Virus record (IMG/VR): IMGVR_UViG_3300025120_000318
Location: 1-30,566 of that record
DNA from: a virus
DNA length: 30,566 nucleotides
Direction: 5' to 3' (one strand)
The position numbers and the translations under genes are program-made. How positions within the stretch are numbered: the stretch's first letter is position 1; each line of letters starts with the position of its first letter. This document shows positions 13,411 to 30,566 of this stretch, in pieces. The notes below the pieces were generated by a model that had not been told where the DNA came from, searched no databases, and saw only the letters and a program-made list of their open reading frames with translations.

Positions 13411-14229
13411 TTAGGAATGAGCGACCCTTCGAGCGTCCATCTCCTTCTGACGAACACGGCGACGCTCCCCGTCGTACCAATCCGGCGACACCTCCCACGA
13501 CTCGTGCAAGCCGCACGCCTCGTGCTGCAACGTGAACTGCACCCTCCGGCGAACGGGAGGCCCGCCGAAATAGACATACGCCTCGACCTTCGCCTCACCG
13601 TCGCAGCCCCTCTCAGGGCACGGGATGATCGCGTGCTCCATGTTCGACTGGAACACCTCGTCCGGCAGGTTCTTGACGACGCCGCGCAGGAACGCTCGCT
13701 GCTCTTTCTCACCGCTCTTGGTCTTGACCATCTTGTCGATCAACTCGCGTGCCTTCTCCGGTGCCTCGCCGCGAACTCGAACGGAAACGCCTCGCGCCTT
13801 CCCCTTCTTGTAGACCTTCACGCCGATCGCCTTGTAGGCGTGCCGGAGCGCACGCTCAGCCTCAGCACCGAGCACGACTCGGACGACTGCTGCGTAGGCG
13901 CTGGCGAATCCGGGGTCGTGATCATCGCCGTACCCGAACTCGACGTGCCGGTGATTTATGTGGTGGGCCATTTCGTGCAGGAGAACGGCCTCGCTCCGGT
14001 TGCCTCCGAGTTTGATCAGCCCCTCGCCGTACACCGCGTATGAGCCTCGGCCTCGACCTTCCTCGACGTTCACGTCCCACAACCCGTTGTAGTTCGGGAA
14101 CGCTTTCTGGAATCGCTTCCCCTTGATGATGCGGGCGTGACGGGCCTTGAGTTTCTTGAAATCGCGGCTGGTCTCTTTCGCGTATGCCTGAACGACATCG
14201 TCGACTCGATAGATGTTGACGCGGGTCAT
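13411..14229 (-). CDS. Zinc metallopeptidase-like protein, HExxH (TIGR04338-like)
   Basis: The 272-residue protein has LLHEMAHHINHR (HExxH at about residues 84-88) followed by DDHDPGFASAYAAVV, which resembles the third-ligand region of the actinobacterial putative metallohydrolases called TIGR04338. A lysine-rich middle (KKGKARGVSVRVRG) and a zinc ribbon (CPERGCDGE, then HEAC) lie in the C-terminal half. No signal peptide is seen, so it acts inside the cell. Substrate is unknown; it could be a protease or, as in SprT-like proteins, bind DNA-protein adducts. It begins at an ATG overlapping the upstream stop (ATGA). Confidence 0.78.
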   Translation of the reverse strand: MTRVNIYRVDDVVQAYAKETSRDFKKLKARHARIIKGKRFQKAFPNYNGLWDVNVEEGRGRGSYAVYGEGLIKLGGNRSEAVLLHEMAHHINHRHVEFGYGDDHDPGFASAYAAVVRVVLGAEAERALRHAYKAIGVKVYKKGKARGVSVRVRGEAPEKARELIDKMVKTKSGEKEQRAFLRGVVKNLPDEVFQSNMEHAIIPCPERGCDGEAKVEAYVYFGGPPVRRRVQFTLQHEACGLHESWEVSPDWYDGERRRVRQKEMDARRVAHS

Positions 14230-14495
14230 GCCGCCGCTCCCCTCAGTCGAGTCTTCGCGTGAACGGTTTTCACGCGCTCAGGATCGAAGGACTTGAAGCG
14301 CCCATCGGAGGTGCGGGCGTCAATCCACATCGACGTCGGAGTGGTCACCTGTCGGGTGAAGCGGAATCGTCCGCGTTGTCCGGCGACCTTGAACTCGGTG
14401 CCCGGTCGCAGATACCGACCGTGGATTTTGATCTCGTCCTCGACGGTCCAGCCGTCGGGCGTGGTGGGTAATTGTTGCTTGCGTCGTTTCGTCAT
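14226..14495 (-). CDS. Conserved actinophage protein (89 aa)
   Basis: The product begins MTKRRKQQLPTTPDGWTVED and continues EIKIHGRYLRPGTEFKVAGQ, RGRFRFTRQV, then a WIDA strand and FKSFDPERVKTVH. This small SH3-like beta-rich layout is recurrent in actinophages (the group sometimes labelled DUF7246). Function is unknown. The ATG at 14495 has GAGGGGAG upstream and replaces a longer frame starting inside the promoter. Confidence 0.78.
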   Translation of the reverse strand: MTKRRKQQLPTTPDGWTVEDEIKIHGRYLRPGTEFKVAGQRGRFRFTRQVTTPTSMWIDARTSDGRFKSFDPERVKTVHAKTRLRGAAA

Positions 14496-14518
14496 GGTGC
14501 TCCCCTCTTGACATGTCC

Positions 14519-14527
14519 ATTTTAGCA
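14519..14527 (-). promoter_or_regulatory. Recurrent promoter element, copy 7 (leftward arm of divergent pair)
   Basis: The minus strand reads CAGGGGGGTA, then the extended -10 TGCTAAAAT, then GGACATGTCAAGAGGGGAG and the ATG at 14495. The base order before the -10 has G instead of C runs. It is back to back with copy 8, only about 34 bp apart, so one protein could control both directions. Confidence 0.62.
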
Positions 14528-14560
14528 TACCCCCCTGTATGAGGGGCTAAGGGGGGGTTG

Positions 14561-14569
14561 TGCTAAACT
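14561..14569 (+). promoter_or_regulatory. Recurrent promoter element, copy 8 (rightward arm of divergent pair)
   Basis: The plus strand reads AGGGGGGGTTG, then TGCTAAACT, then CGTGCGCGAGGGAAAGG and the ATG at 14595. The hexamer TAAACT is identical to copies 2, 5 and 9. CCCCTGTATGAGGGG between the two divergent promoters (near 14533-14547) is itself an inverted repeat. Confidence 0.62.
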
Positions 14570-14594
14570 CGTGCGCGAGGGAAAGGAAACGACC

Positions 14595-14906
14595 ATGAGC
14601 AAGATTCAAGAGGGCACGATCCTCGTTGACAAGTGGGGCTACGACCAGACGAACGTGGACTTCTACAAAGTCATGTCCGTCAAGAATGGTTGGGTCCAGA
14701 TCACGGCGATCCAGAGAGACATCACGGAGTATGCGCCTGATGCGATGGGCGAGTACGTCATTCCGTTCGACACGAGCGGCCCGGACTCCAAGAAGATGCG
14801 TCGCAAGGTGCAGCAGCACGGCGAATCCGAATACGTCAACACGTCTTCGTACTCCGCTGCCTCCATTTGGGAAGGCGATCCCGTTCTGCAAACCCACACT
14901 CACTAA
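14595..14906 (+). CDS. Conserved phage protein with WGYDQTNVDFY motif (103 aa)
   Basis: The product begins MSKIQEGTILVDKWGYDQTN and continues VDFYKVMSVKNGWVQITAIQ. The string WGYDQTNVDFYxV is a strong signature of a small phage family of unknown function, predicted as a compact beta-barrel. The ATG at 14595 is preferred over a GTG eight codons upstream because GGAAAGGAAA lies before it. It leads the only plus-strand transcription unit in the window, divergent from the 14495 gene. Confidence 0.8.
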   Translation: MSKIQEGTILVDKWGYDQTNVDFYKVMSVKNGWVQITAIQRDITEYAPDAMGEYVIPFDTSGPDSKKMRRKVQQHGESEYVNTSSYSAASIWEGDPVLQTHTH

Positions 14907-14972
14907 ACGGATACGCCGCCGCCCACCAGATCGACATCGCCAACGTCCGAATCAAGCATTAGGGAGAGCACA

Positions 14973-15152
14973 ATGAAACTCGTAATCGAGATCGACCTAG
15001 ACAACGCCGCGTTCGAGGAGCCGAACGGTCACGTCGAGGTCGAGCGCATCCTGAAGAAATACGTCACGCGCACCGGCACCTACGGTGTTTACGGCGACGT
15101 GTTACTCGACATCAACGGAAACACCGTCGGAACAGCCAAGGTGAAAGAATGA
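14973..15152 (+). CDS. Conserved small phage protein (59 aa)
   Basis: The product begins MKLVIEIDLDNAAFEEPNGH and continues with VEVERILKKYVTR, then GVYGDVLLDINGNTVGTAKV. This beta-alpha-beta layout (MKxxIEIDLDNAAF, a helix, LxDxNGNxVG) is common in actinophages; function unknown. GGGAGAG lies 5-11 bases before the ATG, and the stop overlaps the next start as ATGA. The 66 bp before it hold no gene. Confidence 0.8.
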   Translation: MKLVIEIDLDNAAFEEPNGHVEVERILKKYVTRTGTYGVYGDVLLDINGNTVGTAKVKE

Positions 15153-15580
15153 GCGAGCGGCACGAGGCGTACTACAACCTCCACAAGGGCTGCCTCTCGC
15201 TGCGTCAGGTCAACGGCGGTCGCGTCCAGCACGTCGACACCGCCGAGTTCGAGGACGTGACGTTCGCCGTGCAGCCCGCAGGTCGAGCCAAGGTTCTGAA
15301 CGAGCGGAAGAAGAATGTTCATGCGTTCGTTCGCGGGACCTTGACTCGCGCCACCGCGTACAGCGGTGACTCAATCCTCGGTAGTTGCATTGACAAGGCA
15401 TACGAACCGTTCTACCGGGTGTTCGAGCCTGACGATCGCATCGTCAAGGTCACCTACAACCCGTACAAGTTCGAGTCGTTCGTGATCGCGGAAACTGAGC
15501 AGCCGATCTTCGAGTCACCGAGGGTGCTCATCGAAGGCCGGACGATATTCGCTGCACAGACCACAACCCCCGTAGGGTAA
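15149..15580 (+). CDS. Conserved phage protein (143 aa)
   Basis: The product begins MSERHEAYYNLHKGCLSLRQ, continues VNGGRVQHVDTAEFEDVTFA, VQPAGRAKVLNERKKNVHAF, and ends near YNPYKFESFVIAETEQPI. The YYNLH, VxHVDxxxxxDVTFxVQPxGRxxVL and KNVHAF segments recur as a phage protein family of unknown role, beta-rich in appearance. It overlaps the 59-aa gene as ATGA. Its TAA stop coincides with the TAAACT of the promoter for the deacetylase-like gene. Confidence 0.78.
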   Translation: MSERHEAYYNLHKGCLSLRQVNGGRVQHVDTAEFEDVTFAVQPAGRAKVLNERKKNVHAFVRGTLTRATAYSGDSILGSCIDKAYEPFYRVFEPDDRIVKVTYNPYKFESFVIAETEQPIFESPRVLIEGRTIFAAQTTTPVG

Positions 15581-15583
15581 ACT
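15578..15583 (+). promoter_or_regulatory. Recurrent promoter element, copy 9 (before the deacetylase gene)
   Basis: The plus strand reads ACAACCCCCGTAGGG then TAAACT, GATGGTCAAGGGAGAGG and the ATG at 15608. Here TGG is replaced by GGG, so the extended -10 is imperfect. The stop of the upstream gene is the first three bases of the hexamer. It would let the deacetylase-like gene be expressed apart from the genes before it. Confidence 0.58.
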
Positions 15584-15607
15584 GATGGTCAAGGGAGAGG
15601 AGACCAC

Positions 15608-16504
15608 ATGAAAGATTTAGTCATATGCCACGACCCGTCCTATGAAGGGTGGGTGTTCGATCCGCAGCACCCGACGCAGGGTCGCAGGTTCACGAACGGA
15701 TACCAACAAGTAATCACTCACGCCGAGGAAGCAGGACTGCGCCACGACACGATCGGGCCGTTCCACGTCACGGACTCGGAACTGCAACTCGCTCACACTC
15801 CCGAATACATCGACCAAGTGCTCAATCAGCACAGGTCGAACGAGTGGAGGGGCGAACGCTCCGACCTCAGCACGTTGGCGAGCCTGTTCGCTGGAGGCAC
15901 GCTCTCGGCGTTATGGGCGCTACAGAACGGGGAGACCCTGACCGCTGTTCACCTGCCCGGAGCGAAGCATCACGCTATGGCGAACACGTCGAGCGGGTTC
16001 TGCGTTTTCAACGACTTCGCGATCGCGGCTCGACTACTCGCGGACGCTGGTCATCGTGTCGCGATTCTCGACGTCGACGCGCACCACGGCGACGGCGTGG
16101 AGGCTCTGTGCTTCGACGAGCCGGACATCCTGACGTACTCGATCCATCAGTATGGAATCTTCCCCGGCACGGGATTGGAGAGCCACGACGAGCGGAACGC
16201 TCTCAACTGGCCTCTGCCTGCCCGAGCCGGAGACCGTGACCTACGCGACGGTGTCGCTGACTTCCTGCTCACGTTGCGGGCTTTCAAGCCTCACTACATT
16301 TTCATCACGGGTGGCGCTGACGGTCACAGGCAAGACCCGCTCGCCGAGTTGGAATACACGCTCGACGGGATGGAGTCCGCGATGCGGATGGTCCGGTCGA
16401 CCTACGACTCGACACCGATCCTGTTCGGTGGCGCTGGCGGGTATCAGCCCGACGGTGCTACTCCGCTCGCGTGGGCACGGATGGTGACAGCCCTAGCCTC
16501 CTAG
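15608..16504 (+). CDS. Histone-deacetylase/AcuC-family zinc hydrolase
   Basis: The 298-residue protein has every hallmark of the arginase/deacetylase fold: LPGAKHHAM (H121, H122, active-site pair), GFCVFNDFAIAA (about 130-141), ILDVDAHHGDG (zinc ligands D157, H159), GIFPGTG (183-189), TGGADGHRQDPL (third ligand D238) and FGGAGGY (Y279, catalytic tyrosine). The nearest families are AcuC and acetylpolyamine amidohydrolases; removal of an acetyl group from lysine or a polyamine is expected. A near-consensus GGGAGAGGAG precedes the ATG. It is the last gene of the plus-strand cassette and meets the 16501-16716 gene tail to tail with 4 bp overlap. The family is certain; the substrate is not. Confidence 0.93.
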   Translation: MKDLVICHDPSYEGWVFDPQHPTQGRRFTNGYQQVITHAEEAGLRHDTIGPFHVTDSELQLAHTPEYIDQVLNQHRSNEWRGERSDLSTLASLFAGGTLSALWALQNGETLTAVHLPGAKHHAMANTSSGFCVFNDFAIAARLLADAGHRVAILDVDAHHGDGVEALCFDEPDILTYSIHQYGIFPGTGLESHDERNALNWPLPARAGDRDLRDGVADFLLTLRAFKPHYIFITGGADGHRQDPLAELEYTLDGMESAMRMVRSTYDSTPILFGGAGGYQPDGATPLAWARMVTALAS

Positions 16505-16716
16505 GACTGCCGGAACTCCGTGCCTCGCGTTGTGGTCGAGGATTGACGCGCTGCGTTCACGGCGACGCCGAGACTGTCGGTGACTTTGTTCGCTGTCCCG
16601 ATGCGCCCGACGACTGTGTCCTGATCGGTGACGGTCGTGAGCATCGTGTGACGGTATCGAGTGTCTGACGTGGTGCGAACTTTGATGAACGTGAACGGTC
16701 TGAGAATTTTAGCCAT
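16501..16716 (-). CDS. Small hypothetical protein downstream of terminase (71 aa)
   Basis: The product begins MAKILRPFTFIKVRTTSDTR and continues with YRHTMLTTVTDQDTVVGRIG. It is threonine- and serine-rich with beta propensity and no cysteine. The ATG at 16716 has AGGA upstream and comes 9 bp after the large terminase stop. It converges with the deacetylase gene. No family is recognised; being between TerL and the plus-strand cassette it may be a packaging accessory or virion protein. Confidence 0.62.
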   Translation of the reverse strand: MAKILRPFTFIKVRTTSDTRYRHTMLTTVTDQDTVVGRIGTANKVTDSLGVAVNAARQSSTTTRGTEFRQS

Positions 16717-16725
16717 GGTCCTAGT

Positions 16726-18348
16726 CTAAAGCACGAGACTGCCGCTGAACCCCTGATTCGAGAACTCGTTTGTTTGACCGAAACTGATCGGCTCAACATC
16801 CATGACCCTGCTCTTACCCTCGTACAAGGCGAGCAGCAGAGCCTCCGCTTGGTCAGGGCTTGCGACCCCTCGACGTTTCATCTCCGCTTTCGCCTCGATC
16901 TGCACGCGACCGGCGCTGTCGCTCCTGAACGTCGGCCCCGCCAACTGCGAGAGCACTTTCCGTTCGACCCGCAGAGCGACGTCCTGCTGCCCGTCCTTGT
17001 CTGGTTGCAGCAGCGTGCGCCCGTTCCACCACAACTCCGCTCGAATGTTCCTGAACTTCTGACCGTCCTTAGCCCGCTCAGCGACGTTCACGGGGACGAT
17101 CACGGACTCGTGCTTACCTTCCTGACCCCACTTTTGCAGCAGGCTGACGACACCCCACCCGACTCCGATCGTGTCGATCTTCACGCGCACCCGATCAGTA
17201 ATGTCCCGCTCTCGGTGCAGGTCCTCGGCTTCCCTGATGTGCCGTAGGCACACCTCGGCGACGTCGACGGCGTTCTCGTTGACCTTCCCGCTCGACTTGT
17301 GGGTGATCGTGCCGGTGAAGCCGTCGGCTTTCGCTATCACGAACTCGTCGCCTCCGTCCGCAGCGATGTCGATGCCGAGGCGAACCTGCGATCCGCTGAC
17401 CGGCTCCTGATTGTCGACGGATGCCTCGCACCACCCGAATGGGATGACTTTGTTCGCTGAAGATCGAGGGAATCGAGCGTGGACGCGAGCCTCAACGAAC
17501 GCGGAGTCCTCCCCGAACTCGGTGATCACCTCGTCCACCCACCTCTGGTCTACGAGGTGTTTCGTGATGTGGTGCTGCGGCACTTGCGGCGGGCACGTCT
17601 TACAGAGACCGACCTCCTCCCCGGTGAAGTTCGGTGTGTCGTAGGCGCTGATCGTGATCGTGTTGTAGAGGGGCGACTCGTAGCAACGCTCGAACCACGA
17701 GTCCTCCTGATCCGTTGGAGGGTTCCCTAGCAGCAGCAGTCGAGTGTTCCCTCCGGTCATCAGGGCCTCTAACGCTTGACCGACTGTCTCCCCGATGCCT
17801 CCCGCCTCGTCGACAACGATCAGCAGGTTCGGCGCGTGGATGCCCTGCGTCGCTGCCTCGTCGTAAGGCGAGGGGCTGAAACCGTAGGACACGATGTCGC
17901 CATTGACCTTCCACGACTGAGTGAGCACCTCTCCGGGCAGGTTCGCTAGGAAGTGTGCTCTACGGATGTGAGGCCAAATAATGTTCCTGACCTGCCTGTG
18001 AGTCGGCGCGATCGTGATCGCTAGGGCTGTGCCCGGAGCGTGTGAGGCGATCCACCATGCGACGATGCGAGCGGAGAGGTGGGATTTACCGGGCGCGTGG
18101 CAGGCCGCAACTGCTGTCCGGGTGTTCGCTACGACGCTGTCCGATATTTCCTTCTGCTTGCTCCACAGGCTCTCTCCGAGGCCCTCCTGAATGAAGCCGA
18201 CAGGGTCGGTCTCGAACCTCGCCCACGGATTGTTCTCCTCAGCCTCAAGGAGCATCGAGAGGGCGTTCCGTTCCTCGGTCGACAGGCTTGAATAGATCGC
18301 GAAGCGTTCCTGACTGCTCGCTTCGAGGACTCGGTCAACGAGCCTCAT
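16726..18348 (-). CDS. terL: Large terminase subunit (packaging ATPase-nuclease)
   Basis: The 540-residue protein has an N-terminal ATPase: Walker A ACHAPGKSH (82-90), Walker B LLIVVDEA (175-182) and a LLLLGNP coupling motif (204-210). The C-terminal RNase H-like nuclease shows GIDIAADGGDE (D327), then VKIDTIGVGWG and SPDQAEALLLA with the later acidic residues. It cuts concatemers and pumps DNA through the portal. It overlaps the small subunit as ATGA. The portal gene is not adjacent but about 12.5 kb downstream. Confidence 0.95.
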   Translation of the reverse strand: MRLVDRVLEASSQERFAIYSSLSTEERNALSMLLEAEENNPWARFETDPVGFIQEGLGESLWSKQKEISDSVVANTRTAVAACHAPGKSHLSARIVAWWIASHAPGTALAITIAPTHRQVRNIIWPHIRRAHFLANLPGEVLTQSWKVNGDIVSYGFSPSPYDEAATQGIHAPNLLIVVDEAGGIGETVGQALEALMTGGNTRLLLLGNPPTDQEDSWFERCYESPLYNTITISAYDTPNFTGEEVGLCKTCPPQVPQHHITKHLVDQRWVDEVITEFGEDSAFVEARVHARFPRSSANKVIPFGWCEASVDNQEPVSGSQVRLGIDIAADGGDEFVIAKADGFTGTITHKSSGKVNENAVDVAEVCLRHIREAEDLHRERDITDRVRVKIDTIGVGWGVVSLLQKWGQEGKHESVIVPVNVAERAKDGQKFRNIRAELWWNGRTLLQPDKDGQQDVALRVERKVLSQLAGPTFRSDSAGRVQIEAKAEMKRRGVASPDQAEALLLALYEGKSRVMDVEPISFGQTNEFSNQGFSGSLVL

Positions 18349-18830
18349 TTCTCGATCTCGCGTGTTTCAAGGATACGCATGACCTTCCGCTCTAGTTCCT
18401 CAGTCGAGACGTTGATCTCGATCGGTTTGCCGTCCGGCCCCGAGAGTTCCGTCCGGTCGAACCTCCCCCACTTACGGGGTTGCTTCCGTTCCAGTATCCA
18501 CGCGCTCGCTTGCCATGTCCCGTTCTTGGCGGCGTTGTCGATGTTCATCACATGACTGATGATGCCTTCGGCGTCAGCCATTTCTACTGTCTCCAAAAAC
18601 TCCAAGAATGGTCTCTCGTCTTCCTCGATTTCGAGTCCCGCGCCTTCCCGTTCTCGCTGCGTGTTTCCTCGGTTGAGCCAGTTGTAGAAGGTGCTCGGGG
18701 CTATGCCGACTGACTTGCAGGAGTCGTCGATGTACGCGCCGCTGCGGAGCATGGCGGCTATGGCTTCCTGCCTCTGCTCTGTGAGGAGGCTTGGGCGGCC
18801 TGTTTTCTTCTTAGCCGGGGTCGTTGCCAT
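18345..18830 (-). CDS. terS: Small terminase subunit
   Basis: The 161-residue protein begins MATTPAKKKTGRPSLLTEQR, then a homeodomain-like helix-turn-helix, AAMLRSGAYIDDSCKSVGIA followed by PSTFYNWLNRG. A helical acidic centre and a C-terminal tail (ELSGPDGKPIEI, then ERKVMRILETREIEK) match phage small terminases, which recognise the packaging site and hand DNA to the large subunit. Its gene overlaps the large subunit. The basic, GRP-rich start is also frequent in such DNA-binding proteins. Confidence 0.85.
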   Translation of the reverse strand: MATTPAKKKTGRPSLLTEQRQEAIAAMLRSGAYIDDSCKSVGIAPSTFYNWLNRGNTQREREGAGLEIEEDERPFLEFLETVEMADAEGIISHVMNIDNAAKNGTWQASAWILERKQPRKWGRFDRTELSGPDGKPIEINVSTEELERKVMRILETREIEK

Positions 18831-21745: not shown

Positions 21746-22378
21746 TTACCCGGCCTCAACCGGGGTTTTCACACGTTCCGCAGAAATCTTGTAAGCGTCC
21801 AATAGCGTGTTACGATCGCGCGTCGAAATATCAGCGCCCTTGATCTGGTCAGTAACGACCGCCAACTGATCGACACTTTCGGCGGCCTCCATCGCAGCGA
21901 GCCACGTCTCTACGTTCTCGGCGTCCTCGAACGTGTGTTCTACGACATCACCGACGGTCGCCTCGACGCTGCCGTTCTTGTAGAGAGACATGCCGAACTG
22001 ATCTCCGAGGTTGACGCAGGCCCTCTTGAAAGCCTGTGACTCGGCTGTCTTCATCGCTTGATCGTGCGCGTCCGCTCGACTCGGGTAGTTAGTTGCATCG
22101 CCGCCAGCCCACTCGCTGTAAACAGCGCCGTCCACCGTTACGACACACAGAGCACGGTAGGCAACCGACCAGCGAGTCTTGCTGCCTGAAACCTCAGTCT
22201 CGTAGATCAACTCCATCTTCTCGACCTCACTCGACCACTCGCCGATGCCGAAAATCTGATTCATCCTCTTACGGATATCCCAAGCCTCAACGTGACTGAA
22301 ACCTTTCCCGTCACGACCCACACGAGACGGGTCAATCGGCTTCAATAATTCCTTGACTTGCTCATTGGAAAAACTCAT
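21746..22378 (-). CDS. Rad52-like single-strand annealing protein
   Basis: The 210-residue protein begins MSFSNEQVKELLKPIDPSRV and continues with GFSHVEAWDIRKRMNQIFGI then GEWSSEV. The helix AMKTAESQAFKRACVNLGDQ FGMSLY matches Rad52-type phage annealing proteins. It pairs complementary ssDNA, and the Gam-like and RusA genes fit that recombination module. The start overlaps the 67-aa gene as ATGA. The C-terminal 60 residues are helical and less conserved. Confidence 0.88.
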   Translation of the reverse strand: MSFSNEQVKELLKPIDPSRVGRDGKGFSHVEAWDIRKRMNQIFGIGEWSSEVEKMELIYETEVSGSKTRWSVAYRALCVVTVDGAVYSEWAGGDATNYPSRADAHDQAMKTAESQAFKRACVNLGDQFGMSLYKNGSVEATVGDVVEHTFEDAENVETWLAAMEAAESVDQLAVVTDQIKGADISTRDRNTLLDAYKISAERVKTPVEAG

Positions 22379-22578
22379 TTCTCTACCTCCGCTACATAGT
22401 CAGCAGCCGACAAAAAACGGTCGCCGCTACTGCCATACACACAAATGTCATTGAATAGGAGCGGGACGACATGCGGGTTCGCTTTGGTTCCGTACCAATC
22501 CCAACCCTTATCGCCGTGAGCCTTGACGGCTGCTCCGATGCGCTGCTCGGCTTTCGCCAACTGCTCTACCACACTCAT
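22375..22578 (-). CDS. Small hypothetical protein (67 aa)
   Basis: The product begins MSVVEQLAKAEQRIGAAVKA and continues with HGDKGWDWYGTKANPHVVPL, a helix followed by an aromatic turn. No family is recognised. It is fused in expression to the Gam-like gene before it and the Rad52-like gene after it (ATGA overlaps on both sides), so it likely serves the recombination module. Confidence 0.7.
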   Translation of the reverse strand: MSVVEQLAKAEQRIGAAVKAHGDKGWDWYGTKANPHVVPLLFNDICVYGSSGDRFLSAADYVAEVEK

Positions 22579-23129
22579 TCCGTCACCTCCACGCTGTAAT
22601 TGACTCCACCCGACTCGACAGCCACTCCGGGGATGATTTCCCCCTGATCAGTCATAGCCACAAGACCAAGAGTTCTCGTGTGCTCGACGCTCGACGCATC
22701 CTTGATCGCGCTTACCGACGGCGTAATTTTGACGCTGACTGCGTCAGGAAGATTCTCCGTCGCCCACTCTAAAAACTTCTCCTCGTCGACGACCTTGAAC
22801 TTGTCCTGTGTCGAACGTGATTTGACGACCCCATAGGGTGTGTCGATCGTCTTTCGATCTTGCTGACTCCTCTGTTTATGCGCGTACTGAGTCAAGATTC
22901 CCTCGAAGTAATCGACCTCGGGCTGAAAGCGACTATCGACACGTTTGCGCCATGCCTCGATACGAGTCATTTCAGCATTCATCATTCGTTCGTTCGCGCC
23001 CATTCGCCGCCGAACATGAAGTAGTTTCCGCATAGCCCATGCGGCTTGCTCGTCGTCCTCAATCTCAAAGCGTTCACGATCAGGCTCAGGGTCTACGTCA
23101 AAGTTATGAATATCGACAGGTTCACTCAT
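22575..23129 (-). CDS. Gam-like host nuclease inhibitor (184 aa)
   Basis: From the ATG at 23129 the product has a long helical N-terminus (DEQAAWAMRKLLHVRRRMGA) with RIEAWRKRVDSRF, then ILTQYAHKQ. A beta-rich C-terminus follows: KTIDTPYGVVKSRSTQDKF, VVDEEKFLEWATEN, and VKITPSVSAIKD. This is the layout of Mu/lambda Gam-type proteins, which bind DNA ends and block host exonucleases. AAGGAGAG lies 6 bases before the ATG; the longer TTG frame runs through the promoter region. It starts the recombination/replication operon. Confidence 0.8.
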   Translation of the reverse strand: MSEPVDIHNFDVDPEPDRERFEIEDDEQAAWAMRKLLHVRRRMGANERMMNAEMTRIEAWRKRVDSRFQPEVDYFEGILTQYAHKQRSQQDRKTIDTPYGVVKSRSTQDKFKVVDEEKFLEWATENLPDAVSVKITPSVSAIKDASSVEHTRTLGLVAMTDQGEIIPGVAVESGGVNYSVEVTE

Positions 23130-23144
23130 AGCACTCTCCTTGCT

Positions 23145-23176
23145 AACGGGGTCTAGGAAAGCATACACCCCCCGTT
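23145..23176 (-). promoter_or_regulatory. Inverted repeat with promoter-like TATGCT before the Gam-like gene
   Basis: AACGGGG (23145-23151) and CCCCGTT (23170-23176) are exact inverted repeats. On the minus strand the centre holds TGTATGCTT, a -10-like sequence. The arrangement resembles the recurrent element but with the G and C arms exchanged. It would drive the 23129-16501 block. Confidence 0.5.
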
Positions 23177-23273
23177 TACTTCTTTCAGTTCGGGGTCCGA
23201 ATGATTTATGAAACAATTAGTACGCATCGTCGACGACTCATCCTCTCCCCCCTTTTGAGTCTCCGATGTGCTA

Positions 23274-27825: not shown

Positions 27826-29475
27826 CTAGATTGCGTACCTAATAATTACGACACCGCTGCCGCCAGTACCGCCCGTACCTCCATAAGCACCGCCGCCCCC
27901 ACTTCCAAGATTAGTGCCCCCGCTGGTCGCGGTGCCGCTAGTCGTTCCAGCGCCGCCTCCTCCTGAGCCGCCAGCACCGTTGCTACTGCCTCCACCGCCA
28001 CCACCACCACCGGCACGAACTACCGCGCTGCCCGAAATGCTTGAAGATGACCCGGCACCTCCGGCTCCCCCGGTCGAACCGGAGCCGTTACCCCCGACTG
28101 CGCCAGCACCACCACCACCTCCGCCGGAGTCGCTGCCGCCGTTCCCACCATTGTTCCCTTGGCCCGGAACAGCAGATCCACCTGTCTGACCGCCGCTGTC
28201 CAAAGATCCACCAGATCCGCTGCCGCCGTACTTTGCGTTTGTTCCAGTTAGACGGTTACCACCAGCACCGCCGACAGCCGTAACAAGGTTGTCGATCTTG
28301 GATGCGGCACCTGTATTGCCAGCGACTCCACCTGCACCGACGGTAATCGTTTTAGAACCAGCACTAAAGTGAACGCTTGATACTTCCGCGTATCCACCGG
28401 CACCACCAGCAGGCCCATTTGATGAGCCGCCGCCACCTCCAGCCCCCACGACGAGACAGTCCACGAACCCAGCCGCACTAACAGTCAAAGAGCCGCTAGA
28501 AGTAAACGAGTGAACCTTGTAGTTCTGACCAGCGACACCAGTCGCTCCGTCACCCGTGTAAGTAGTTTCCGTGCCACCCGACGCGACGACACCCGCAGCA
28601 GAGCCACCGATGATCGTCCGAACAATCACGATGCCTGAGCCACCAGCACCACCTGTGCCACCGCTAACTGCCGTGAAGCCACCGCCACCTCCACCGCCCG
28701 TGTTTACGGTTCCGGCAACGCCGGTTGTTGCTGCCGCAGCACCGCCGCCACCAGCGCCGCCTGCACCCTTGCTCGTGCCGTGGCCCCCGCCACCGCCACC
28801 ATACGTTTGTGCGCTGCCTGTTTGCAGCGAGGATGCTTGACCTGCCCCGCCTGCACCACCAGTTGATCCGGAGCCTGCCGCACCGACAGCACCGGCCCCC
28901 CCGCCACCGCCAGATCCTTGACCCGCAGAGTTAGTACTTACGCCTGCCCCACCGTTATTGCCTTGACCGGGAACACCCGTCCCAGCGGTCTTGCTCACGT
29001 TTGTCTGAGTGTTACCTCCCCCACCGGACGCGCCATTTATCCCGACGTAGTAGCCGCCGATGTTCGTCCCGTCATGGGCACCACCAAGGCCACCACCAAA
29101 GGCGTACAACTCATCAACCCGACTGCTCGTGCCTTGTGTCCCTCCAGCGGCAGCCCCAGCCCCAACGGTCACCGCAAAGGAACCCGCTTCAAGGAAATGT
29201 GAGCCGACCTCAATAACACCTCCGGCTCCACCGCCACCCGCGCCATAGAACGCTCCTGACCCGCCAGCACCCGCACCGCCAACAACGAGAACATCGACAA
29301 CGCCGGAACCGCTTACAGTCAAAGTGCCAGTCGCGGTAAACGTATGCACACCGAAGGTAGTTGATCCACTCGTGTACGTCGTGTAAGTGCCGCCAGAAAG
29401 TTGAGCGAACCGACCCGCCGAAGGGACTGTCGATCCCGCACCGAGAGTCGCTTGCGATAAACGTTGAATACTCAT
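27826..29475 (-). CDS. Glycine-rich tail fiber/adhesin-like protein, tandem domain (549 aa)
   Basis: Two glycine-rich domains lie in tandem. Each begins with a strand unit (FGVHTFTATGTLTVSGSG, and YKVHSFTSSGSLTVSAAG), then VVDVLVVGGAG or VDCLVVGAGG, a long Gly/Ser run with GGAGG repeats, and ends in GSGIVIVR or GSGVVIIR. Such proteins are expected to form polyglycine sandwich adhesins at the tail tip. The first Met is at 29475, four bases inside the previous gene (ATGA). Domain duplication is visible at the DNA level. Low complexity makes annotation by homology unreliable. Confidence 0.78.
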   Translation of the reverse strand: MSIQRLSQATLGAGSTVPSAGRFAQLSGGTYTTYTSGSTTFGVHTFTATGTLTVSGSGVVDVLVVGGAGAGGSGAFYGAGGGGAGGVIEVGSHFLEAGSFAVTVGAGAAAGGTQGTSSRVDELYAFGGGLGGAHDGTNIGGYYVGINGASGGGGNTQTNVSKTAGTGVPGQGNNGGAGVSTNSAGQGSGGGGGAGAVGAAGSGSTGGAGGAGQASSLQTGSAQTYGGGGGGHGTSKGAGGAGGGGAAAATTGVAGTVNTGGGGGGGFTAVSGGTGGAGGSGIVIVRTIIGGSAAGVVASGGTETTYTGDGATGVAGQNYKVHSFTSSGSLTVSAAGFVDCLVVGAGGGGGSSNGPAGGAGGYAEVSSVHFSAGSKTITVGAGGVAGNTGAASKIDNLVTAVGGAGGNRLTGTNAKYGGSGSGGSLDSGGQTGGSAVPGQGNNGGNGGSDSGGGGGGAGAVGGNGSGSTGGAGGAGSSSSISGSAVVRAGGGGGGGGSSNGAGGSGGGGAGTTSGTATSGGTNLGSGGGGAYGGTGGTGGSGVVIIRYAI

Positions 29476-30323
29476 GCTGTCCTCACTCGTACAACAACCA
29501 CACCGCTGCCGCCTGCCCTGCCGTCGCTCGTGACGGTTTCGACGCCACCGCCACCGCCGCCCGTGTTGGCAGACCCATCAGCGCCAGCGTCCCCGCCGCC
29601 ACCAGAGCCGCCGGTTCCCGACGTTCCACCACCGCCGCCACCGCCGTACAGGACAGACGAACCGGAGTAACTGCTTGACTTGCCTGCGCCACCGGTCTGA
29701 TTAGAGCCACTCGTGCCAGCCGCACCAGCACCGCCACCAGAGCCGCCGCTTGAGGAACTGTTGCCACCAGCACCGCCGTCATTCCCTAAACCGCTTACTC
29801 CCGTCCCACCGGCAGGAGCAGAGCCACCAAGATAGCCTGAACCGCCGCCGCCACTTGCGCCGTTTCCTCCAAGGTCGCCTCTGATCTGTGTGCCAGAAAC
29901 GCTTGATTCACGAGTGAAGCCACCGCCTCCACCACCGCCGGGTGAATAAATGTCGCCAACCCGTGACGGGAAACCATTAGCGCCGTTGCGTCCTGCACTT
30001 GTTCCTGTAGATGCGACACCCGCACCCCCGGCCCCGACCGTGACCGTGACGCTTCCGGCACTTAGGTAACTTTGACTCGTTTCGAGAACGCCCCCGCCGC
30101 CGCCGCCGCCACCGTAGCCTGATCCAGAACCTCCCCCGCCGCCCACAAGAAGATAATCCGCGAGACCAGCAGTAGTCACGTTCAGGGAACCAGATGCCGT
30201 CAGCGTCCAAAAACTGTACGAAGCAGAGCCAGACGTATACGTTCCAGTAGGCGTATCACTAATCACCGCGTTACCCGGTGTAGAACCAATCAGTCCTGAC
30301 CCGCTGAACGAACTCATCGCCAT
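29472..30323 (-). CDS. Glycine-rich tail fiber/adhesin-like protein, single domain (283 aa)
   Basis: From the ATG at 30323 the product begins MAMSSFSGSGLIGSTPGNAV and has one copy of the domain: FWTLTASGSLNVTTAGLADY, LLVGGGGG, Gly/Ser runs, and VVVVRVRTA at the end. It shares its organisation with the following 549-aa protein, so the two probably derive from one duplicated module. The ATG at 30323 lies one base after the upstream stop; the longer frame is a shadow of the preceding gene. Likely a tail tip or fiber subunit. Confidence 0.78.
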   Translation of the reverse strand: MAMSSFSGSGLIGSTPGNAVISDTPTGTYTSGSASYSFWTLTASGSLNVTTAGLADYLLVGGGGGSGSGYGGGGGGGGVLETSQSYLSAGSVTVTVGAGGAGVASTGTSAGRNGANGFPSRVGDIYSPGGGGGGGFTRESSVSGTQIRGDLGGNGASGGGGSGYLGGSAPAGGTGVSGLGNDGGAGGNSSSSGGSGGGAGAAGTSGSNQTGGAGKSSSYSGSSVLYGGGGGGGTSGTGGSGGGGDAGADGSANTGGGGGGVETVTSDGRAGGSGVVVVRVRTA

Positions 30324-30324
30324 G

Positions 30325-30566
30325 TTATGAGATCTCCGAAAGGAACGCCGAGAACGCAATCGTGTTCGCTGAACTAGACACGCGGATAAACTTACCCGCA
30401 TCCATCGTGATACCCAACGTCAATGCAATCGTGTCATTCCCAGCAACTGAAGCGTCATACACGAGGAACTCAGATGCACCCGGAGTGCCAGCCGTCGCGT
30501 CTAATCCGACACGCACCGTGATAGCCGACGAGGACTGATTACAGATAACGAGGGACGATATCACCG
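30325..30566 (-). CDS. Virion-like protein, C-terminal part (5' end outside window)
   Basis: The visible part reads VISSLVICNQSSSAITVRVG onward with EFLVYDASVAGNDTIALTLG and FIRVSSSANTIAFSAFLSEIS at the end. This ASVAANDTxxLTxGxTMxxxxxIxVxSSxxxxxFxxFxxEI pattern is frequent in small phage tail or head-tail proteins with an immunoglobulin-like beta-sandwich. The GTG at 30564 may be an internal valine; the true start is probably beyond the right edge. Confidence 0.7.
   Translation of the reverse strand, partial: VISSLVICNQSSSAITVRVGLDATAGTPGASEFLVYDASVAGNDTIALTLGITMDAGKFIRVSSSANTIAFSAFLSEIS

Follow-up and report, generated by a model that had tools for sequence, protein, structure and literature searches.

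An HDAC-family gene beside the terminase of an actinophage and the K-type subfamily of putative deacylases to which it belongs

Does a gene of the histone deacetylase (HDAC) family found in a virus record belong to the phage itself, and what would its product act on? The question is raised by an IMG/VR virus record that spans 30,566 bases and may be a fragment; it was analysed over its whole length (hereafter, the window), and an intact plus-strand open reading frame in it at 15608–16504 (ATG to TAG) encodes a protein of 298 amino acids. The sequence-only reading of the window regarded this product as a zinc hydrolase of the AcuC type, encoded by an actinophage and not routine among phages, which might remove acetyl groups from proteins or polyamines.

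Identity and phage context of the HDAC gene

In a Pfam profile search, the HDAC protein matched PF00850 (Hist_deacetyl) at 1.5e-56 (192 bits; cut-off, 27.9), and chance is therefore excluded. The AlphaFold2 model, built with 48 aligned sequences (pLDDT 97.2, pTM 0.94), has four tied best structural matches, namely, the Burkholderia HDAC-family protein 5ji5, lysine deacylase 5zmp, HDAH and Acinetobacter Kdac1 (VIA Z 39–40, rmsd 1.8–1.9, 287–292 residues), and the single-domain chains recovered in a profile search with the protein were headed by class I HDACs. Profile match and predicted arginase-deacetylase fold concur in assigning the protein to this family of zinc hydrolases, as originally proposed; searches of PHROGs with the gene and of NCBIfam with the protein returned no family.

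The residues initially listed as the active site (H121, H122, D157, H159, D238 and Y279) are all intact at those positions. The catalytic double histidine closes the motif G118-A119-K120-H121-H122 (15959–15973, plus strand), which also contributes a foot-pocket lysine (the foot-pocket role of the motif is taken from PMC11532494), and is followed by the zinc ligands D157 and H159 (16076–16084, plus strand), the third ligand D238 (16319–16321, plus strand) and the XGGY element A276-G277-G278-Y279, that is, foot-pocket loop and catalytic tyrosine (16433–16444, plus strand); a GFC motif is present as well. In an alignment of 81 viral proteins, 11 proteins of the same type from actinobacterial genomes or MAGs and 37 other, AcuC-like homologues, the catalytic residues, including the zinc ligands and Y279, are invariant, and no loss-of-function active site was seen among the close relatives in this alignment. 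Catalysis by the HDAC protein is thus a well-supported prediction, in which D157, H159 and D238 would hold a single zinc ion within the arginase/HDAC fold, H121 and H122 would activate water and Y279 would polarise the acyl carbonyl. The gene is under purifying selection, with a dN/dS of 0.14 relative to its counterpart in contig L003; its GC3 of 0.75 agrees with the values for the gene of the large terminase subunit (terL; 0.78) and for that of the portal (0.73).

The HDAC gene closes a short run of plus-strand genes (about 14595–16504) with minus-strand genes on either side, in agreement with its initial description as the end gene of a plus-strand cassette; other long plus-strand open reading frames mostly overlap conserved minus-strand genes. 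The run starts with a gene of unknown function (14595–14906; phrog_37844) and continues with a small open reading frame (14973–15152) that is conserved in contigs L002, L003 and L005–L007, and with a member of the Mycobacterium phage L5 gp82 family (15149–15580; PF25735) directly upstream of the HDAC gene, all on the plus strand. Downstream, the HDAC gene converges with terL (16726–18348, minus strand), the ends of the two genes being separated by about 220 bases, and the small terminase subunit is encoded next to it (18345–18830, minus strand). Apart from both terminase subunits, the surrounding minus-strand genes encode a Mu-type portal, a Mu F-like head protein, a RusA-like resolvase and a replication initiator, as well as a Rad52-like annealase and a Mu Gam-like protein, which adjoin each other as a recombination pair (21746–23216, minus strand). 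Elsewhere on the minus strand, two adjacent proteins of the same family (27826–30401; phrog_2295, glycine-rich domain) are probably paralogous structural proteins, and the product of 13411–14229, 92% conserved in L003, has a weak SprT-like metallopeptidase match (E 0.0011, under the Pfam cut-off).

The HDAC gene was also suggested to have its own promoter-like element, which we consider weakly supported. Some 30 nt upstream of the ATG lies a TAAACT box, combined with a GGGARAGGARAC ribosome-binding site, and the pair also precedes the first plus-strand gene; the box with the GGGAGAGGAGAC ribosome-binding site forms the leader of the HDAC gene (15578–15604, plus strand), in the same layout as at 14564–14590, the pattern having been derived from those same two sites. 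TAnnnT boxes at comparable distances are seen in several relatives (L003, L013, L015 and L017), but a strict consensus scan of 14400–16900 yielded no sigma-70-type site.

The assignment to an actinophage is well supported because the best matches of TerL are Arthrobacter and Microbacterium phages (51–53% for the top ones) and the upstream gene belongs to the L5 gp82 family; the cellular homologues most similar in type are likewise actinobacterial. A megablast search with the record found no DNA match to named phages. The possibility that the gene is a host contaminant or dead cargo might draw on the presence of genes of this type in host chromosomes, but the gene is embedded among phage genes and evolves under the constraint noted above. 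Moreover, a separate IMG/VR record, contig L002, is 99.97% identical to the studied record over 9.5 kb, L003 retains the gene order at 93% protein identity, and in every contig from L002 to L007 the HDAC gene and this terL are direct convergent neighbours. Given that synteny with terL is conserved in many independent contigs, we reject host contamination, the outcome that was to overturn the initial assignment, and assign virtually no probability to this scenario.

The K-type subfamily and its distribution

Inspection of the alignment revealed that the lysine directly preceding the catalytic histidines is present in 80 of 80 viral and 11 of 11 actinobacterial proteins with a letter at that site and in none of the 37 other homologues, which have Leu, Met, Phe, Tyr or His instead. 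We refer to the lysine-bearing proteins as K-type. The loop before the catalytic tyrosine (GGY) is likewise diagnostic, with Ala or Ser in all K-type proteins and Gly in 37 of 37 others; the search patterns that retrieved the aligned loci included neither site. Further group-specific residues lie at the N-terminus and in the L2 loop (W15, T23, E79 and W80), the latter carrying the signature E79-W80-x-G-x-R. In the tree, which has no fixed root and contains no experimentally characterised AcuC references, a branch with 98/100 support separates the 24 AcuC-like rows from the K-type rows. Several host genomes hold a K-type gene together with a separate AcuC-type (GGLHH) paralogue. As judged from these sequence features, the K-type is a distinct, phage-centred subfamily common to actinophages and their actinobacterial hosts rather than a stray host AcuC, and the original AcuC-type label does not fit. 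Three actinobacterial K-type proteins (L100, L108 and L119) have Ala in place of H160, as well as insertions, and form a diverged branch.

A family search of viral databases provides a two-sided answer to the claim that this is not a routine phage gene. The claim holds for named phages, with two credible HDAC-family records among 50,697, but not for uncultivated viruses, in which K-type genes were found in at least 142 distinct sequences after removal of near-identical ones. One of the two named phages, Microbacterium phage Magritte, encodes a genuine K-type protein (gp204, ‘hypothetical protein’; GAKHH, AGGY) that is 43% identical to the HDAC protein, whereas gp202 of Rhodococcus phage E3 (‘putative histone deacetylase’) is an HDAC-family protein of a different type (GLHH) on a very long branch. 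HDAC matches from Staphylococcus and Pseudomonas ‘phages’ were left out because the two records inspected (GenBank OR844993.1 and OQ572411.1) are flagged UNVERIFIED and lack annotation; their HDAC-family genes may be host DNA. AcuC-type (GLHH) genes are, for their part, common in contigs classed as viral (loci L313–L392; at least 120 pattern-matching stretches), where they are not accompanied by the cassette described below.

On the cellular side, 17 of 166 genomes from the order of genome G002 contain a strong match, of the K-type, and a gap sets these matches apart from the AcuC-type ones; G[AG]KHH is present in all 17. At least one copy, in L086, is plainly chromosomal, being located beside SbcC/SbcD-like and aldehyde dehydrogenase-like genes (assigned by eye). 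Dual-specificity phosphatases are encoded beside or near the K-type gene in the cellular loci L084, L085, L089 and L100, as well as L168, and occur in tandem twice, in L084 and L085; genes for VWA, NUDIX, WhiB and GIY-YIG-like proteins (mostly assigned by eye) also recur near cellular K-type genes, resembling a host island. On the tree, the virus label has to change at least four times, and the gene has therefore probably passed between phages and hosts on several occasions.

A recurrent gene cassette next to terL

Clustering of the neighbours of viral K-type genes revealed two recurring partners besides terL. The first is a peptidase of about 187 residues (PHROG 1040, ‘peptidase HslV family’) with invariant T2, D18, K35 and S139 and a proteasome-type fold whose nearest match is BPH (Z 20.3, rmsd 2.8); in many actinophage-like contigs among L008–L083 (e.g., L032:8910–9488 and L075:6847–7413), it is encoded with the full catalytic set beside the K-type gene. 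The second is a dual-specificity (DSPc) phosphatase with an invariant Cx5R loop. Within 7.5 kb of the gene in the 142 distinct viral sequences, terL was found in 94, the peptidase in 92 and the phosphatase in 45; clustering at 70% identity leaves 33 sequences, with terL in 19, the peptidase in 12 and the phosphatase in 9. A second set of 117 viral loci, fetched solely by an AKHH...GFC DNA pattern and overlapping the first, contained within 4 kb the peptidase in 73 cases, the phosphatase in 45 (mostly on the same strand at a distance of -4 to 63 bases) and matches to one of two terL types in 62. By contrast, among 78 AcuC-type viral loci used as a control over the same 4 kb, there was no terL, no peptidase and a single phosphatase.

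Three arrangements predominate in our description: HDAC–peptidase–terL, with terL on the opposite strand; peptidase–phosphatase–HDAC–terL, with terL on the same strand; and HDAC–terL, with terL on the opposite strand. The studied record displays the third of these, and in the subclade of its HDAC gene terL is the only cassette neighbour. Genes for an HslV-like peptidase or phosphatase were not found in the 30,566-base record, which may be a fragment, nor in Magritte, unlike in its cassette-bearing relatives; the cassette is therefore not obligatory. The peptidase neighbour of the sister phages is similar in kind to the phage proteasome homologues, PPH and AAH, reported previously (PMC8665760). 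That 2021 survey detected AAH in no actinobacteria-specific phage, and its consulted passages do not link proteasome homologues to HDACs.

The joint occurrence of the K-type gene with peptidase and/or phosphatase genes in one run by terL points to a programme for editing protein modification and turnover during infection. Phages with such neighbourhoods probably alter the chemical tags that proteins of the host or of the phage carry.

Candidate substrates and relationship to known deacylases

The two motifs that distinguish the K-type both line the foot pocket, which takes up the acyl product and sets the acyl-chain preference (Graf et al., 2024; PMC11532494). When published structures are aligned by motif, K120 would fall within this pocket in place of Leu or Met; with Ala or Ser replacing the opposite Gly, the acyl group removed should therefore change. 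The most likely natural substrate would be acylated lysine on host or phage proteins, to the presumed benefit of the phage. We accordingly favour, at somewhat better than even odds, a phage lysine deacylase that takes acyl marks off host or phage proteins and does not use acetylpolyamines, a reading built on the K-type features and the cassette context.

The alternative raised at the outset, deacetylation of polyamines, envisages that spermidine is freed from N-acetylspermidine for phage replication, as by the acetylpolyamine amidohydrolases (APAHs) of giant viruses. Viral APAHs with the HDAC fold have indeed been biochemically proven in Imitervirales, and T4, T7 and other such phages replicate more slowly without spermidine (PMC9992855). 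Nevertheless, the tested bacterial polyamine deacetylases all belong to cluster 4, with a PIS motif and a dimerising L2 loop (Graf et al., PMC11532494), and the APAH homologues identified by Li et al. (PMC9992855) come from Imitervirales only. The HDAC protein is short (298 amino acids), carries GAKHH in place of the RPPXHH of cluster 4 and has DPL (D243-P244-L245; Leu in 81 of 81 viral proteins) at the gatekeeper site instead of PIS or the PEG of HDAC10; no polyamine gene was seen adjoining K-type genes. Polyamines are thus disfavoured as substrates, and we consider this option quite improbable. Nor does GAKHH with AGGY correspond to the RPPXHH and EGGY of the robust deacetylases of cluster 1 (HdaH), or to the GGG(F/Y)HH or SGGYHH pocket of the HDAC11-like long-chain deacylases of cluster 5.

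An AcuC-like metabolic switch, whereby deacetylation of the host acetyl-CoA synthetase (AcsA) or a similar enzyme would yield more acetyl-CoA during infection, is unlikely, even though cluster 2 (class I/AcuC) is the nearest known cluster by motif and profile, given the lack of RPP and the presence of (G/A)GGY, here A276-GGY. The XGGLHH foot-pocket motif of that cluster is replaced by PGAKHH, the L2 signature differs as well, and it is the K-type form that the phage carries, whereas several hosts have the GGLHH paralogue in addition.

The product could also be an amidohydrolase acting on a small molecule that is not a protein, for example the amide of a nucleotide, a sugar or a defence signal. 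HDAC-fold enzymes include hydrolases of dimethoate and propanil, and RwDmhA and RsPrpH (cluster 1b) turned to such substrates with changes in the very same foot-pocket motif (PMC11532494); the positive charges of K120 and R84 could suit an anionic ligand. However, the alignment shows that the Leu gate and the aromatic residues of the substrate tunnel (F131 and F185) are retained, as an acyl-lysine tunnel would require, and the neighbours in relatives are protein-acting families, namely, the peptidase and the DSP-type phosphatase, which makes this possibility a rather doubtful one.

Returning to lysine deacylation, the pocket lysine together with the conserved R27 suggests a preference for anionic acyl groups, and one report attributes histone desuccinylation to class I HDACs (PMC10425439). 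The bolder version of this idea, that a cationic K120–R27 pocket strips succinyl, malonyl or glutaryl groups and joins the peptidase and phosphatase in an infection cassette that de-modifies and degrades its targets, strikes us as a long shot.

The protein families involved are known, but the K-type subfamily and its cassette appear to be undescribed in the literature searched. The main texts of the 2024 survey of bacterial deacylases (PMC11532494) and of a class IV HDAC survey (PMC13325672) mention no phages or viruses, the 2023 survey of viral polyamine metabolism (PMC9992855) reports HDAC-fold APAHs in giant viruses (Imitervirales) only, and our search, thin on subscription journals, found no paper naming a phage HDAC or deacetylase of the K-type sort.

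Phages are known to modify host proteins with acyl, ADP-ribosyl or phosphate groups. If the reading favoured here is true, a widespread phage lineage of erasers, in the form of a deacylase often encoded next to a phosphatase and a proteasome-fold peptidase, would represent a different strategy of host control and allow direct tests of bacterial lysine acylation as a field of conflict with phages, with the foot-pocket lysine as a concrete structural variant whose acyl specificity can be tested.

Among known viral enzymes, the closest parallel is provided by the APAHs and HDACs of Klosneuvirus, Tupanvirus and Hyperionvirus (PMC9992855), which are likewise virus-encoded and share the HDAC fold. 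Giant-virus enzymes were the only clear matches to the HDAC model among the predicted viral structures of BFVD, at 16–19% identity to the BFVD entries; they differ in hosts and origin. Cluster 2 deacylases, including Bacillus subtilis AcuC and class I HDACs (PMC11532494), share with the K-type the fold, the catalytic residues, (G/A)GGY, the Leu gatekeeper and the lack of RPP. The K-type differs from them in the lysine that replaces Leu before the histidines (91 of 91 versus 0 of 37), in the Ala or Ser of the GGY loop, a site occupied by Gly in the AcuC-type proteins sampled, in its own N-terminus and L2 loop (W15 and E79-W80) and in its phage context.
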